Positions 3,985 through 8,884 of a stretch of 12,582 bases of DNA are shown one piece after another; positions within the stretch are counted from its first letter, which is position 1; every line of letters begins with the position of its first letter. The notes beneath the pieces were generated by a model. The model saw nothing but the letters and a program-made list of their open reading frames with translations. It had not been told where the DNA came from and made no database searches. Where the stretch lies: NCBI GenBank assembly GCA_947624465.1, contig CANQKJ010000030.1, positions 1 to 12,582 of the forward strand, in the 5' to 3' direction. The translations under genes and the position numbers were made by a program. Source of the DNA: an uncultured Oscillospiraceae bacterium (GTDB lineage Bacteria; Bacillota; Clostridia; Oscillospirales; Oscillospiraceae).

Positions 3985-4031
3985 AGGATTTGTCGAGTGG
4001 GAGTAACTTGACCGCGAATGGATGTGAGCAT

Positions 4032-4865
4032 ATGGGCTTTGGAAAAACAATCGAACTATTTTGGGTAAATGGTACGGCGGATGGGATTATTACCGCGGAA
4101 CTTTCCAACTGGAATGGGAAAGGTATTAAAGTGCCGCGTACCGAAATTATGTCGTGCCAGCGGGAAGATGTCTGTGAGCCCGGGGTCTATTTTTTGCTCT
4201 GTCAGGAAGATGATGGGACAGATTCTGTCTACATTGGTGAGGCAGAAAATATCAAAGACAGGCTGATTCAGCATCTCCGTGACTACCAAAGCGGGAAGGA
4301 AAAGTATTATTGGAATACTGCTGTCATTTTTGTTGGCAGGGATTTGAATAAGGCGCTGATCCGGTATCTTGAGAACCGTTTGGTGGAAATCGCTACGGAG
4401 TGTGCCCGCTATAAGATCCTCACAAAGAATACCTACAAAAATACCGTAGTGAAAGAGTCGCAAACTGCCAGTATGGAGGAGTTTATTGACAATATCAAAG
4501 TGCTTATCAACGCTATGGGCTATAAAATCCTGGAATCCGTTCCGATTGCCACTGATACTACGGAGTATCTGTATTGCAAAAGTGGCCATGCCAATGGGAA
4601 GGGGTTCATAAGTGCAGGCGGGCTTACAGTTGTAAAAGGATCGAAAGTCTCCGACCATTTGGCGAATTCCTTTGAAAGTGGATCCAAATCCTATTTTGAC
4701 TTGCGAAAGAAACTGGAGTCAGATGGCATTATTGCCGATGGCGAATTTATTAAGAACTATGAATTCAGTGCGCCGTCTGCCGCTTCCTCGGTCATTCTCG
4801 GACGTTCTTCCAATGGAAAGACGGAATGGAAGACGCATTCAGGTAAAAAACTAAGCGAGTTGTGA
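4032..4865 (+). CDS. GIY-YIG nuclease-family protein with C-terminal DUF4357
   Basis: Protein of 277 residues. The GIY-YIG fold is read from GVYFLL (51-56, the GIY strand), VYIGEAENIKDRLIQH (66-81, YIG strand plus the conserved Arg77) and YLENRL (112-117), whose Glu114 sits where the metal-binding catalytic Glu is expected. A linker region follows, and the C-terminal GRSSNGKTEWKTHSGKKL (257-274) matches the DUF4357 pattern of a small, Trp-containing module. No restriction methylase or helicase lies next to it. The protein should be a cytoplasmic nuclease, possibly acting on foreign DNA, but its target is unknown. Start choice: the frame is open from TTG 3990, which lies too close to the candidate -10 box. 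ATG 4032 gives the usual-looking N-terminus MGFGKTIELF, with only a weak GTGAG in front. TTG 4008, with GGGAG upstream, is an alternative. AT-richer than the copper and galactose genes, consistent with transfer. Confidence 0.82.
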   Translation: MGFGKTIELFWVNGTADGIITAELSNWNGKGIKVPRTEIMSCQREDVCEPGVYFLLCQEDDGTDSVYIGEAENIKDRLIQHLRDYQSGKEKYYWNTAVIFVGRDLNKALIRYLENRLVEIATECARYKILTKNTYKNTVVKESQTASMEEFIDNIKVLINAMGYKILESVPIATDTTEYLYCKSGHANGKGFISAGGLTVVKGSKVSDHLANSFESGSKSYFDLRKKLESDGIIADGEFIKNYEFSAPSAASSVILGRSSNGKTEWKTHSGKKLSEL

Positions 4866-4869
4866 TAGA

Positions 4870-4896
4870 AAGCCCTCCATCCCGGATGGAGGGCTT
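4870..4896 (+). terminator. Strong hairpin after the GIY-YIG gene
   Basis: AAGCCCTCCATC (4870-4881) pairs exactly with GATGGAGGGCTT (4885-4896, reading through the shared central bases), starting 4 bases after the stop codon. The tail CCCTTATAAAATAG carries few Ts, so this is a stable stem with a weak U-tract. It separates the cargo gene from the copper operon. Confidence 0.65.
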
Positions 4897-4921
4897 CCCT
4901 TATAAAATAGCCCCAGCCCCC

Positions 4922-4950
4922 TTGACAAACTCCCACCGGTATAGTATGAT
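4922..4950 (+). promoter_or_regulatory. Promoter of the csoR-copA operon
   Basis: A perfect TTGACA (4922-4927) and TATGAT (4945-4950) are spaced 17 bases apart, one of the strongest promoter matches in the window. Transcription should start near 4957, exactly where the GC-rich palindrome begins, leaving a leader of about 90 bases before the csoR start. Confidence 0.88.
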
Positions 4951-4956
4951 AACACT

Positions 4957-4971
4957 ACCCCCCAGGGGGGT
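4957..4971. promoter_or_regulatory. Candidate CsoR operator palindrome
   Basis: ACCCCCC-A-GGGGGGT is a perfect 7-1-7 palindrome at the predicted transcription start of csoR-copA. CsoR-type repressors bind short TA-flanked operators with a C-run facing a G-run, and here T precedes the left arm and GTATA follows the right arm. The position would block RNA polymerase when copper-free CsoR is bound. The regulator identity is inferred from the adjacent gene. Confidence 0.8.
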
Positions 4972-5047
4972 GTATATCGAACCGCCGGCCGCGTCCTTTC
5001 CTAAGGATGCGCTTTGCCGATTTTGAATGCGTAAAGGGGGAATCATT

Positions 5048-5308
5048 ATGATGGCCGACCGCAAGACCATCCTGCGGCTGCTCAAGACCGCCAGGGGCCA
5101 GATCGACGGCATCATCAGGATGGTGGAGGAGGACCGCTACTGTATGGATATCTCCCAGCAGGTGACGGCGGCGGACGCCATGCTCCGCCGGGCCAACCGG
5201 GAGATATTGACCGCCCATCTGAAACACTGCGTGGAACACGCCGAGAGCGACAAAGAGCGGTCCGACAAGATCGACGAATTGGTGAACGCCTTAGGGAAAA
5301 TCCTATGA
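5048..5308 (+). CDS. csoR: CsoR-type copper-sensing repressor
   Basis: All-helical DUF156-family repressor of 86 residues that binds operator DNA when metal-free and lets go on Cu(I) binding. The Cu(I) ligand set Cys-His-Cys is present as Cys32 (DRYCMDIS), His57 and Cys61 (HLKHC). The family opening DRKTILRLLKTARGQIDGI is complete. The start is ATG 5048 (followed by ATG 5051), 7 bases after AAAGGGGG (5033-5040). An earlier in-frame ATG at 5027 lies upstream of this ribosome site and is unlikely. The gene is first in an operon with copA, 17 bases apart, behind a promoter overlapped by a likely CsoR box, so it should regulate itself and copA. Other DUF156 members sense nickel, formaldehyde or persulfide; the ligand set and the copA neighbour favour copper. 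Confidence 0.92.
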   Translation: MMADRKTILRLLKTARGQIDGIIRMVEEDRYCMDISQQVTAADAMLRRANREILTAHLKHCVEHAESDKERSDKIDELVNALGKIL

Positions 5309-5325
5309 CCGAGGTGACTTGAGCC

Positions 5326-7869
5326 ATGAGACAGAAATTTATCGTCACCGGCATGACCTGCTCCGCCTGCTCCGCCCACGTGGACAAGGCGGTGCGGAAG
5401 CTGGAGGGCGTGTCCGAGGTGAACGTGAACCTGCTGGGCGGCTCCATGACGGTGGACTGGACGGGTGACTTGACCACCGACCAGATCATCGCCGCCGTGG
5501 ACAAGGCCGGGTACGGCGCGTCCCTTCCCGCGGCGAAGGGGGAGAGCGCCCGGCCTCAGCCCACCGTCCCCAACATGGAGGACGAGCTGAAGCGGATGAA
5601 GCGGCGGCTCATCATCTCCATCATCTTCCTGGCGCCCCTGTTCTATATCTCCATGGGCCACATGATGGGCTGGCCGCTGCCTCCGTTCCTGCTGGGCCAT
5701 CAGAATATGCTGGTGTTCGCCCTGACGCTGCTGCTGCTGACCCTCCCCATCATGTATGTCAACGACAAATACTACAAGGTGGGCTTCAAAACGCTGTGGC
5801 ACCGCTCCCCCAACATGGACTCGCTGATTGCCCTGGGCTCCGCCGTGGCGTTCACGTACAGCGTCTATGTGATGTTCCGGCTGGCCTACGCCCTGGGCCA
5901 CGGGGACATGGAGACGGTGGAGCGCTTCCACATGAGCCTCTATTTCGAGTCCGCCGGCATGATTTTGGCGCTGGTCACCGTGGGCAAGTATCTGGAGACC
6001 CGCTCCAAGGGCAAGACCGGCGAGGCCATCGCCCGGCTCATCGACCTGACTCCCAAGACCGCCGCCGTCCTCCGGGACGGGCGGGAGGTGGAGGTCCCCG
6101 TGGAGCAGGTGCGGGTGGGCGACCTGGTGATCGTGCGGCCCGGCGGCTCGGTGCCCGTGGACGGCGTGGTGGCGGAGGGGTCCTCCTCGGTGGATGAGTC
6201 CGCCCTCACCGGCGAGTCCATCCCCGTGGACAAGACCGTGGGGGACACGGTGATCTCCGCCTCCATCAACAAGTCCGGCGTCTTAACGCTCCGGGCCACC
6301 CGGGTGGGGGAGGACACCACCCTGGCCCAGATGATCCGCCTGGTGGACGAGGCCGCCTCCTCCAAGGCCCCCATCGCCAAGCTGGCGGATAAGGTGGCCG
6401 GGGTGTTCGTCCCAGCGGTCATCGGCATCGCCGCCGTGACGGCGCTGGCGTGGCTGCTCCTCACCGGCTCGGTGGAGCGGGCGTTGACCTCCGGCGTGGC
6501 GGTGCTGGTCATCTCCTGTCCCTGCGCCTTAGGTCTGGCCACCCCCGTGGCCATCATGGTGGGCACCGGCAAGGGGGCCGAGTACGGCATTTTGGTGAAG
6601 TCCGCCGAGGGGCTGGAGCGGCTCCGCTCGGTGACCGCGGTGGTGCTGGACAAGACGGGCACCGTCACCGAGGGCAAACCCAAAGTCACCGACGTGTACC
6701 CCCTGAACGGGAAGTCCGCCGAGGAGCTGCTGTGCGTGGCCGCCTCCCTGGAGAAGCCCTCCGAGCATCCCCTGGGGGCCGCCGTGGTGGAGGAGGCCGC
6801 CCATCGTGGCATTCCCCTGTGCCCGGTGGAGGGCTTTGAGGCCGTCCACGGCAAGGGCGTCCGGGGACACATCCAAGGGGCCTTCTACGTGGCGGGCAAC
6901 GCCGCCATGCTGGCGGGGGCCGGAGTGAAGCTGGGCGAGCACCAGTCCCTGGCCGACGAACTGGCCGCCCAGGGCAAGACGCCCCTGTTTTTCCTGGAGG
7001 ACGGCCGGCCCATCGGGGTCGTGGCCGTGGCCGACACGGTGAAGCCCACCAGCCGCGCCGCCATTGAGGGCTTCCGCAGGCTGGGTCTGAAAGTCGTCAT
7101 GCTCACCGGCGACAATAAGCGCACCGCCGAGGCCATCGGCAGAGAGCTGGGTCTCACCGACGTGATCGCCGAGGTGCTGCCCGCCGACAAGGAGCGGCAG
7201 ATCTCCGCTTTGCAGATGAAGGGGGAGAAGGTGGCCATGGTGGGGGACGGCGTCAACGACGCGCCCGCCCTGGCCCGGGCCGATGTGGGGGTCGCCATCG
7301 GCGCGGGAGCGGACGTGGCCATCGAGTCCGCCGACATCGTGCTGATGAAGTCCGACCTGGCCGACGCGGTCACCGCCGTGGAGCTGTCTAGGGAGACCAT
7401 CCGCAACGTGAAACAAAACCTGTTCTGGGCCTTCTTCTACAACGTCGTCTGCATCCCCATGGCCGCCGGCCTGTTCGGCTTCCAGCTGGACCCCATGTAC
7501 GCCGCCGCCGCCATGAGCCTCAGCTCCGTCACCGTGGTCAGCAACGCCCTGCGGCTGCGGTTCTTTAAGCCCAGCATCAAGCCGGAGCGTCCCAAAACTG
7601 ACGTGAAAGCCGCTGAAATTACCGTTAAAACCGGCAGGACCGCCGTTGAAACACCGAAAGGAGAAAACGATACTATGAAAAAAGTCACCATCGAGGGCAT
7701 GATGTGCCAGAACTGCCGCAAGCACGCCGAGAAGGCCCTCCAGGCCCTGGACCCCAACGCCACCGTGGACCTGGAGAGCAAGACCGGCACCGTCGCCTCC
7801 ACCGTCTCCGACGACGCTATCCGCGCCGCCATCGCCGACGCGGGGTACGAGGTCTCCGCCATCGCCTGA
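5326..7869 (+). CDS. copA: Cu(I)-exporting P1B-type ATPase with N- and C-terminal HMA domains
   Basis: Membrane ATPase of 847 residues that pumps Cu(I) out of the cytoplasm. An N-terminal heavy-metal-associated domain carries GMTCSAC (Cys12, Cys15). The membrane and catalytic core shows TGES (295-298) in the actuator domain, the ion-path CPC (398-400), phosphorylation site DKTGT (Asp442), SEHPLG (His481), MLTGDN (Asp596) and GDGVNDAPAL (Asp641, Asp645). YN (in FFYNVVCIP) and MSLSS near the last helices mark the Cu(I) P1B-1 class. A linker of about 40 residues rich in Lys, Thr and Glu leads to a second HMA domain from 784 with GMMCQNC (Cys794, Cys797). Bacterial CopA usually carries HMA domains only at the N-terminus, so the C-terminal one is notable. 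The start ATG 5326 has GAGGTGAC 7 bases upstream; the gene follows csoR by 17 bases and shares its copper control. Confidence 0.95.
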   Translation: MRQKFIVTGMTCSACSAHVDKAVRKLEGVSEVNVNLLGGSMTVDWTGDLTTDQIIAAVDKAGYGASLPAAKGESARPQPTVPNMEDELKRMKRRLIISIIFLAPLFYISMGHMMGWPLPPFLLGHQNMLVFALTLLLLTLPIMYVNDKYYKVGFKTLWHRSPNMDSLIALGSAVAFTYSVYVMFRLAYALGHGDMETVERFHMSLYFESAGMILALVTVGKYLETRSKGKTGEAIARLIDLTPKTAAVLRDGREVEVPVEQVRVGDLVIVRPGGSVPVDGVVAEGSSSVDESALTGESIPVDKTVGDTVISASINKSGVLTLRATRVGEDTTLAQMIRLVDEAASSKAPIAKLADKVAGVFVPAVIGIAAVTALAWLLLTGSVERALTSGVAVLVISCPCALGLATPVAIMVGTGKGAEYGILVKSAEGLERLRSVTAVVLDKTGTVTEGKPKVTDVYPLNGKSAEELLCVAASLEKPSEHPLGAAVVEEAAHRGIPLCPVEGFEAVHGKGVRGHIQGAFYVAGNAAMLAGAGVKLGEHQSLADELAAQGKTPLFFLEDGRPIGVVAVADTVKPTSRAAIEGFRRLGLKVVMLTGDNKRTAEAIGRELGLTDVIAEVLPADKERQISALQMKGEKVAMVGDGVNDAPALARADVGVAIGAGADVAIESADIVLMKSDLADAVTAVELSRETIRNVKQNLFWAFFYNVVCIPMAAGLFGFQLDPMYAAAAMSLSSVTVVSNALRLRFFKPSIKPERPKTDVKAAEITVKTGRTAVETPKGENDTMKKVTIEGMMCQNCRKHAEKALQALDPNATVDLESKTGTVASTVSDDAIRAAIADAGYEVSAIA
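7656..7663 (+). promoter_or_regulatory. Internal ribosome binding site within copA
   Basis: GAAAGGAG stands 11 bases before an in-frame ATG at 7675. The surrounding linker codons (7600-7680) are clearly AT-richer than the rest of copA, as in a gene-to-gene gap or a region selected for ribosome access. Confidence 0.6.
7675..7869 (+). CDS. Possible internally initiated CopZ-like copper chaperone (3' end of copA)
   Basis: Starting at the in-frame ATG 7675 gives a 64-residue protein, MKKVTIEGMMCQNC..., of the size and fold of a free CopZ chaperone. The Cu(I)-binding Cys pair is Cys11 and Cys14, and the C-terminal AGYEVSAIA is the usual last strand. The start MKK and the upstream GAAAGGAG look like a normal gene start. 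Two readings are possible: a former separate copZ fused to copA by loss of the copA stop codon, with the signal left as a relic, or a working internal start giving both a fused and a free chaperone from one gene. The sequence cannot decide between them. The same residues are the C-terminal domain of CopA. Confidence 0.5.
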   Translation: MKKVTIEGMMCQNCRKHAEKALQALDPNATVDLESKTGTVASTVSDDAIRAAIADAGYEVSAIA

Positions 7870-7883
7870 GAGAGGCAAAAGGG

Positions 7884-7911
7884 AAGGGCCGCTCCGTTTG
7901 GAGCGGCCCTT
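7884..7911. terminator. Bidirectional terminator between copA and the leftward operon
   Basis: AAGGGCCGCTCC (7884-7895) and GGAGCGGCCCTT (7900-7911) form a perfect 12-bp stem with loop GTTT. It follows the copA stop by 14 bases and ends 1 base before the stop codon of the opposite pseudouridine synthase gene. The flanking CAAAAGGG and TTTT give short U-runs on both strands, so one stem can serve both transcripts. Confidence 0.85.
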
Positions 7912-7912
7912 T

Positions 7913-8884
7913 TCACGTTATCCTGTAATCGGGGAAATATTCCTCCACAAAGTCCACGTCCTCCACTGTCCACTCCCGGCCGTTGAGGGGATTCAGGCAC
8001 CCCGCGTCGGTGGTGAAGTCGAACCGCAGCTTGTAGGAGTACAGCGCCTGGAACCGGCGGTCGTACTTTTTATCGTCCCGCTCCCGGCCGTATTTGCCGT
8101 CCCCCAGGAGGGGGTGGCCGGCGGCGGCGAACTGGGCCCTGATCTGATGGGTCCGACCGGTGATGAGGTCGCACTCCACCAGGGAAAGGCCGTTTCGCGC
8201 CGCCAGCGTTCTGTAAAGGGTGACCGCTGTACGGCCATTGGGAATAGGACGGTCATAGACCTTCACCTGGGCCTTGTCCTCGTCCTTGAGGATGTATCCC
8301 TTGAGCTGGCCCTCTCTCGGCTCCGGCGTCCCGTGGACCACGCAGAGGTACAGCTTTTGCAGCTCCCGGTCCCGGATCTTCTGGTTCATCACCCGCAGGG
8401 CCTCGGCGGTCTTGGCGGCGATGACGATGCCGCCGGTGTTCCGGTCGATGCGGTTGCAGAGGGCCGGGGCGAAGGAGTTCTCCCAATAGGGGGACCACTC
8501 CTTTTTCTGGTACAGATACGCCTGGATGTGGGTGATGAGGGTGTTGACCCGCTCCTTGTCGTCGGGGTGGACCACCACGCCGGGGCGCTTGTTCACCAGC
8601 AGCAGATGCTCGTCTTCATAGAGGATATCCAGCTGGGGCTTGAACACGGATAAAAAGGCGTTCTCCCGGTTGGGCTGCTCAAAGAACTCGTCGTTGATAT
8701 AGAGCTGCAAGAGGTCGCCCTGTTCCAGCCGGTCATCCTTTTTGGCGGCCTTTCCGTTGCGCTTCACCCGCTTGAGCCGGAGGTATTTCTGGGCCAGAGG
8801 GCCGGGGAGGAGGGGCAGCGTCTTGGCCAGCCAGCGGTCCACCCGCTGACCCGCGTCGTTTTGGCCGATGGTAAATTCCTTCAT
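7913..8884 (-). CDS. RluA-family pseudouridine synthase (RluC/RluD type, with S4 domain)
   Basis: Protein of 323 residues that should convert specific uridines of ribosomal RNA into pseudouridine. An S4 RNA-binding domain covers about residues 1-62 (DRWLAK, KYLRLKRVKRNGK). The catalytic domain has NRIDRNTGGIVI (144-155) with the nucleophile Asp147, then TGRTHQIR (242-249) and GHPLLGDGKYG (256-266), the standard RluA motifs. The target site cannot be read from the sequence; presence of S4 argues against RluA itself. The ATG overlaps the galT stop by 4 bases (ATGA) and has no clear ribosome site, so it is probably translated by coupling to galT. The link with galactose genes looks like operon sharing, not shared function. 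Confidence 0.92.
   Translation of the reverse strand: MKEFTIGQNDAGQRVDRWLAKTLPLLPGPLAQKYLRLKRVKRNGKAAKKDDRLEQGDLLQLYINDEFFEQPNRENAFLSVFKPQLDILYEDEHLLLVNKRPGVVVHPDDKERVNTLITHIQAYLYQKKEWSPYWENSFAPALCNRIDRNTGGIVIAAKTAEALRVMNQKIRDRELQKLYLCVVHGTPEPREGQLKGYILKDEDKAQVKVYDRPIPNGRTAVTLYRTLAARNGLSLVECDLITGRTHQIRAQFAAAGHPLLGDGKYGRERDDKKYDRRFQALYSYKLRFDFTTDAGCLNPLNGREWTVEDVDFVEEYFPDYRIT

Follow-up and report, generated by a model that had tools for sequence, protein, structure and literature searches.

The copper ATPase gene copA in a stretch of 12,582 nucleotides from an uncultured Oscillospiraceae bacterium (GenBank assembly GCA_947624465.1, contig CANQKJ010000030.1; the whole stretch is referred to below as the window) very probably yields two products. 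Alongside the full-length pump, internal initiation at a second start codon in the same reading frame would release the C-terminal HMA domain of the pump as a free, CopZ-like protein. This reading, which the first-pass annotation of the window had put forward, is supported by a Shine-Dalgarno (SD) site and start codon that are kept from gene to gene while the linker around them varies. A start codon with an SD match of at least 5 bases precedes the C-terminal domain in 273 of 299 distinct fused copA genes, that is, genes in which this HMA domain is part of the copA frame.

A probable internal start within copA

The features of the gene on which the argument rests are as follows.

5326..7869, + strand: copA, Cu(I)-exporting P1B-type ATPase (TIGR01511, 593.9 bits; cut-off, 397)
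5338..5514, + strand: N-terminal HMA domain, GMTCSAC (CxAC), read in translation
7576..7674, + strand: hypervariable linker that joins the C-terminal domain to the last conserved segment of the core, from comparison of gene tails
7657..7663, + strand: internal SD site AAAGGAG, 11 bases ahead of the ATG at 7675
7675..7677, + strand: internal ATG start codon, in frame with copA (codon 784)
7675..7869, + strand: nested copZ-like coding region, 64 amino acids, GMMCQNC (CxNC; Pfam HMA, 47.5 bits)

CopA at full length comprises 847 amino acids, with HMA domains at its N and C termini, a P1B ATPase core, and a short linker between. Pfam matches cover E1-E2_ATPase, Hydrolase, and two HMA stretches, and the translation carries SCPCALG (the CPC membrane motif) and DKTGT (the phosphorylation motif), CPC and DKTGT being hallmark motifs of P1B-type Cu(I) ATPases. 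The protein scores below the narrower PRK10671 equivalog CopA model (649.9 of 1316).

A ribosome site and ATG-AAA-AAA in frame before the C-terminal HMA domain had been noted at first pass and were confirmed, with GAAAGGAG at 7656 to 7663 and ATG-AAA-AAA at 7675 to 7683, both within the 847-codon open reading frame 5326 to 7869. The predicted product from this ATG has 64 residues and begins MKKVTIEGMMCQNC. AAAGGAG-N11-ATG, a pattern derived from this sequence, occurs once in the window and was matched in 3 of 200 dinucleotide-preserving shuffles. The further claim of an AT-rich signal region in a GC-rich gene is borne out by 200-base bins, with a GC content of 0.57 to 0.58 at 7500 and 7600 compared to 0.67 to 0.74 at 6000 to 7200, although the dip is not unique within copA (the bin starting at 5600 likewise has 0.57). 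The 80 bases around the internal ATG have a predicted folding energy of −9.3 kcal/mol compared to a gene mean of −29.2, and an equally weak or weaker fold was predicted for 4 of 716 other codon-centered stretches of copA. For a single sequence, chance would be a possible explanation; it is excluded because of the comparison with 299 fused relatives.

Conservation within and beyond the genus

At the chosen threshold, 40 of 42 genomes of the genus gave a copA match, and 38 distinct genes from 36 genomes, related by descent and therefore not independent, had a readable C-terminal start region and were aligned. AAAGGAG (positions −18 to −12 relative to the start) and ATG (0 to +2) are invariant in all 38 genes. 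Outside these two elements, the alignment from −42 to +6 holds no invariant column, and in columns −38 to −20 the commonest base is held by 12 to 36 of the 38 genes. The pair AAA GGA, present in 38/38, is not a product of codon bias, because AAA makes up on average 24% of lysine codons and GGA 8% of glycine codons in copA genes of the genus.

For wider comparison, 200 genomes of the family, 243 of the class, and 249 of the phylum were searched, and 80 loci were taken from named records. Leaving the phylum sample aside, 335 loci carried a copA core, of which 303 were distinct after removal of 32 duplicates: 278 fused, 20 without a C-terminal HMA domain, and 5 cut by contig ends. Loci L001 to L003, L047, L030, L076, L195, and L046 (non-copA, duplicate, or core missing) were excluded before that count. 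In the family, 177 genomes matched, and 146 loci among the matches listed were classed (129 fused, 15 without the C-terminal domain, 2 cut). Class loci comprised 28 taken as best matches and 40 regions picked because the match reached the C-terminal domain; class matches with internal stop codons, possibly adjacent copA and copZ genes, were left out. The fused and unfused counts are thus no estimate of prevalence, and the internal site had no role in the choice of loci.

An ATG with an SD match of at least 5 bases was found in 255 of the 278 distinct fused genes (234 with at least 6 bases and 21 with 5), and three more (L099, L175, and L310) have GTG with AAAGGAGG. The remaining 20 divide into 3 with ATG and a 4-base SD match, 4 with ATG and no SD match, 6 with GTG or TTG and no SD match, and 7 without a start codon. 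In L216, AAGGAG and ATG lie further up, outside the search window, and this gene was rescored by hand as site bearing. From the phylum sample, 26 of loci L424 to L451 were analyzed (L450 and L451 were left out, their genomes being already present); 21 were fused, 14 of them with the site, and 5 lacked the C-terminal domain. In L428 of this sample, GTG stands at the start position, with AAAGGAG. Named records uncounted, a classifiable copA was obtained for 47 family codes and 156 genus codes, of which 40 and 124, respectively, include at least one gene with the site. Internal sites are also present in copA of the cultured Flavonifractor sp. An10 and Pseudoflavonifractor phocaeensis An507. At first pass, disappearance of the ribosome site or the ATG from the majority of fused homologues had been named as the outcome that would speak against internal initiation; the opposite was seen.

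Selection on bases rather than residues

An SD match of at least 5 bases precedes the start in 97% of the 262 ATG genes, compared to 37% after synonymous recoding by each gene's codon use (200 rounds; maximum, 43%) and 7% after shuffling of the linker codons. Other in-frame ATGs in the same genes have such a match at 203 of 6,281 positions (3.2%). When the rule by which the start was chosen, the best start codon among 12 codons, was mirrored at random places in the same genes, ATG with an SD match was returned in 68 of 5,560 trials (1.2%) and any start codon with an SD match in 233 (4.2%).

Relative to the reading frame, the site is spread over all three codon registers (136, 112, and 10 of 258 genes, a count that takes in three sites with neither GGAG nor AGGA, in L085, L086, and L342). 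The residues read at the site change with the register: KGE, QGG, and KGT in one, KEE, KEI, and KED in another, and RRN and RRE in the third. It is therefore the bases that are kept and not the residues.

Base composition and predicted structure also mark out the internal start. Mean GC over the genes is 0.61, compared to 0.26 to 0.50 at codons −10 to +7 around the internal start, except for 0.60 at codon −4 (258 genes). In 150 of the 258 eligible genes, the predicted minimum free energy is −10.0 kcal/mol at the internal start versus −25.3 kcal/mol at other in-frame ATGs, and the mean predicted unpaired probability from −18 to +3 is 0.65 versus 0.43. The SD match averages 6.7 bases internally compared to 4.4 at copA's own start in 250 genes, where the own start was picked approximately and 72 of the 250 had no SD match at all.

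Site and start also vary together. Across the samples of genus, family, class, and named records, 13 genes lack a start codon or have an SD-less GTG or TTG, and in none of these does the 66-base stretch ahead of the motif contain an SD-like word of at least 6 bases; three (L133, L148, and L162) hold a 5-base GGAGG there. Eight genes encode two or more C-terminal HMA domains. Six of them (L059, L085, L086, L138, L219, and L431) carry an SD match of 5 or more bases ahead of the last domain but not ahead of the one preceding it, the site being merely GAGGTGA in L085 and L086; the other two (L147 and L162) have none. Among second or later N-terminal HMA domains, 1 of 9 is preceded by a 5-base SD match, paired with GTG. 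Site-less fused genes (L133, L152, L139, L119, L142, L122, and L135, among others) lie at several separate places in the copA tree; the seven named are GC rich, and of these, only L135 has an ATG at the start. Site-less fused genes offer natural tests of the need for a free form.

Chaperone type of the C-terminal domain and separate CopZ genes

Residues 784 to 847 match PF00403 (HMA) at 47.5 bits against a cut-off of 24.8, as a single HMA domain with the MxCxxC motif (GMMCQNC); by this Pfam match, the fold predicted for the C-terminal domain is fixed. The metal-binding motifs at the two ends of the pump differ in type. Among the 278 fused genes, the N-terminal CxxC motif is CxAC in 264 and CxSC in 5 (not found in 9), and the C-terminal motif is CxHC in 251 and CxNC in 23 (together 274/278). 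CxHC typically goes with copper chaperones and CxAC with pump domains.

In the genome from which the window comes, which is 78% complete, the sole HMA match outside copA belongs to a DLDCANC domain. It lies in a frame of 73 amino acids (L003:1483-1704, contig C42) between an ArsR-like gene and a second metal ATPase, both named by eye. Of 42 family genomes, 41 were matched by a DNA pattern for G(M/L)xCxx(H/N)C, chiefly within the domain of copA; other matches were scattered and partly examined. A separate CopZ-like small gene was found in at least 4 of 13 site-less family genomes (G127, G182, G057, and G080) versus at least 2 of 114 with the site (G094 and G153; Fisher P = 0.0009, post hoc), counted by hand from matches listed down to about 43 bits, so that weaker genes were missed in both sets.

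Another small HMA protein has the motif GMMCGMC (in L408, GMMCSMC), ends in a basic, phenylalanine-rich tail, and is encoded by frames of 85 to 118 codons. Within the stretches that were fetched, it is present in 8 of 13 site-less genomes (L404 to L406, L408, L413, L414, L416, and L417), near the end of copA in L414 and L416, and in 1 of 5 control genomes examined (G148; L422). We do not take it as a CopZ substitute.

Points against internal initiation

Several observations weigh against a free CopZ-like protein, or at least against one that is made and needed wherever copA is fused. An SD match of at least 5 bases beside a start codon is missing in 26 of the 299 fused genes, and in the phylum sample the site is missing in 7 of the 21, so that it is less constant further out; the rows are related genes and do not count as independent events. 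The null from synonymous recoding is high, because SD-like bases come readily with peptides such as KGE, and for that reason it is the register result, and not this null, that separates selection on protein from selection on nucleotides. Among 1,260 other SD-like hexamers in copA bodies, 182 have an in-frame ATG 4 to 13 bases on; chance pairing of the two is therefore not rare in a single gene, and it is conservation that carries the argument. The 64-residue product falls under the NCBIfam cut-offs for CopZ (NF047957, 49.1 of 85; NF033795, 38.2 of 91; NF033794, 35.6 of 95) and is therefore called CopZ-like here and not filed as a CopZ member. Compensation by a separate copZ is partial, at no fewer than the 4 of 13 site-less family genomes given above, and strict complementarity, in which a site-less genome always has a separate copZ, was looked for in the family genomes and not found. 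Several site-less family genes keep the CxHC domain with no separate CopZ found among the matches listed, and the free form is therefore not needed everywhere; in such genomes, the tethered domain may suffice.

Fusion history and alternative explanations

A tree of 324 copA cores (FastTree) implies 9 changes between fused and unfused forms and, among fused genes, 17 between site and no site. These counts have no direction, several long branches meet in the tree, and many of its forks are weakly supported. On its simplest reading, the tree would reflect an old fused form that had the site, followed by repeated losses. Species in which copA and the HMA gene are separate, which the first-pass annotation had proposed to look for, were found: in L185, L187, L189, L211, and L218, the CxxC motif of a separate HMA frame lies 20 to 77 bases past the copA stop codon. 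Fusion or fission therefore does occur. Such split forms, from which loss of a stop codon easily makes a fused gene, lend some plausibility to the other reading offered at first pass, in which site and ATG are the unused relic of a recent copA-copZ fusion. That reading is no longer tenable and in our view very unlikely. Site and start are kept in 273/299 genes while the linker turns over, most fused genes are not fresh fusions because the tree has only 9 fused/unfused changes, and in the six double-HMA genes with the site the penultimate HMA domain has none.

SD-like sequences within genes have been proposed to slow ribosomes, and the element could pause translation for membrane insertion or folding of CopA with no new protein being made. 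L133, L148, and L162, which still hold GGAGG in the absence of a usable start, would fit such a role. For pausing, however, a start codon 4 to 13 bases downstream would be superfluous, and the two occur together; longer SD-like words (6 or more bases) occur in 0 of the 13 genes lacking a usable start, GTG substitutes for ATG in place in L099, L175, L310, and L428, and the predicted low structure covers the start. We consider pausing very improbable. It is still harder to credit an internal promoter just upstream from which the C-terminal domain would get a short mRNA of its own. A promoter scan did return TTGAAA-17-GATACT at 7646 to 7674 (9 of 12 matches), one of three promoter-like sites in 4800 to 8000 where 0.6 were expected, but its −10 box ends one base before the ATG, so that transcripts would start past the ATG and without the ribosome site; a promoter further upstream would be compatible with use of the same internal start. 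Finally, Lys-Gly-Glu and Met might be selected as residues, perhaps to form a linker or a cleavage site, with the likeness at the DNA level incidental. KGE (53 genes) and KEE (42 genes) are indeed the commonest readings, and recoding yields SD matches at the rate given above, but the same bases are reached through different residues in three registers (KGE, KEE, QGG, KGT, and RRN) and AAA GGA is universal in the genus despite the low shares of both codons given above, which leaves selection on residues with next to no probability.

Proposed mechanism and implications

We propose that ribosomes starting at 5326 would make the 847-residue pump with its chaperone-type C-terminal HMA domain, while others would load at AAAGGAG (7657 to 7663), initiate in frame at ATG 7675, and make a free protein of 64 residues. 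Both starts would lie on one copA message, putatively as part of an operon with csoR, which is located just upstream. The free CopZ-like protein might then shuttle Cu(I) to CopA or other takers, and the nested product could stand in for a separate copZ, in an arrangement that appears old and present in most fused copA genes sampled. Initiation in the cell, stability of the product, Cu(I) binding, and a CopZ role are what we infer from the sequence comparisons.

If internal initiation is used, the ratio of pump with a tethered chaperone to free chaperone would be set by translation alone, and there would be a second, independent route from one copA gene to pump and chaperone, which suggests that coproduction of the two is itself selected. 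Extended to the sampled relatives, the same argument makes it likely that a large part of the Clostridia carries a copper chaperone nested in copA behind a deeply conserved in-frame start, which would explain why copZ is reported missing from the CsoR regulon in gut Clostridiales. Annotation can miss a small protein whose frame and stop codon are those of a larger gene, and nested starts of this kind may be found through nucleotide-level conservation in hypervariable linkers.

The copA locus and neighboring genes

Two further features flank copA.

5027..5308, + strand: csoR, encoding a CsoR-family metal-sensing repressor, immediately 5′ of copA (Pfam PF02583, 92.5 bits; cut-off, 22.8)
7886..7913, + strand: terminator-like hairpin GGGCCGCTCC-GTTT-GGAGCGGCCC followed by TTTT, read directly from the sequence

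The best NCBIfam match of csoR is RicR, under its cut-off (56.4 of 175). The hairpin was absent from the output of a terminator scan, in which the scanner demands at least 5 T. Upstream of csoR-copA lie genes for an AAA_25 ATPase (11 to 1102, + strand), which we take to be RepA-like, and a Mob_Pre plasmid recombination/mobilization protein (1539 to 2723, + strand), and together these suggest a mobilizable element beside the copper locus. A GIY-YIG and DUF4357 protein (3990 to 4865, + strand) possibly belongs to the mobile segment.

Comparison with known systems

Among the matches listed in a literature search, no report of internal initiation in copA was found on the basis of titles and the first part of abstracts, with subscription journals and preprints mostly uncovered. 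The CopA of Archaeoglobus fulgidus has a C-terminal heavy-metal domain (PMC9433437), so that, as in the fused genes, heavy-metal domains stand at both ends of the pump; the A. fulgidus CopZ differs in carrying a fused iron-sulfur domain (PMC7558416). A precedent for the route is the CTP1L endolysin of a Clostridium tyrobutyricum phage, in which an internal ribosome site and start free the C-terminal domain alongside the full-length protein (PMC4777826). CTP1L is a lytic enzyme, in contrast, whose short product oligomerizes with the full-length one and which is unrelated to metals.

In csoR-copA-copZ and related operons, copZ is a separate gene beside copA (PMC4938975). As in the window, a CsoR-type regulator, a Cu ATPase, and a small HMA chaperone come from one locus; there, pump and chaperone are two genes with a stop codon between, whereas here a single open frame would have a second start inside. 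For human gut Firmicutes, the same source gives a CsoR regulon of csoR and copA with no copZ, terms this absence noteworthy, and reports that among the 10 Clostridiales genera of highest abundance only 1 has a CopZ homologue by BLAST (PMC4938975). A nested copZ could explain why the CsoR regulon of gut Clostridiales lacks copZ and, if real, would give a testable answer to the puzzle.

The closest parallel is E. coli copA, whose free chaperone, CopA(Z), is the N-terminal HMA domain of the pump. There, pump and CopA(Z) are reported to be both made from copA by programmed ribosomal frameshifting (Meydan 2017 and Drees 2017, cited in PMC7558416, PMC9548414, and PMC10187127). In both cases, one gene would give a pump and a free chaperone made of the pump's own HMA domain. 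In E. coli, the N-terminal domain is released through a frameshift, whereas here the C-terminal domain would be released through a second in-frame start, without recoding. CCCAAAG, the slippery heptamer of E. coli copA, occurs once on the forward strand of the window, at 6679, which falls within the catalytic part of copA rather than behind the N-terminal HMA domain. Pump and chaperone from one gene are thus of a known kind, while the mechanism and the gene end would be new, and, taken together with the nested-chaperone reading, the internal start is probably convergent with the E. coli frameshift, at the opposite end of the protein.

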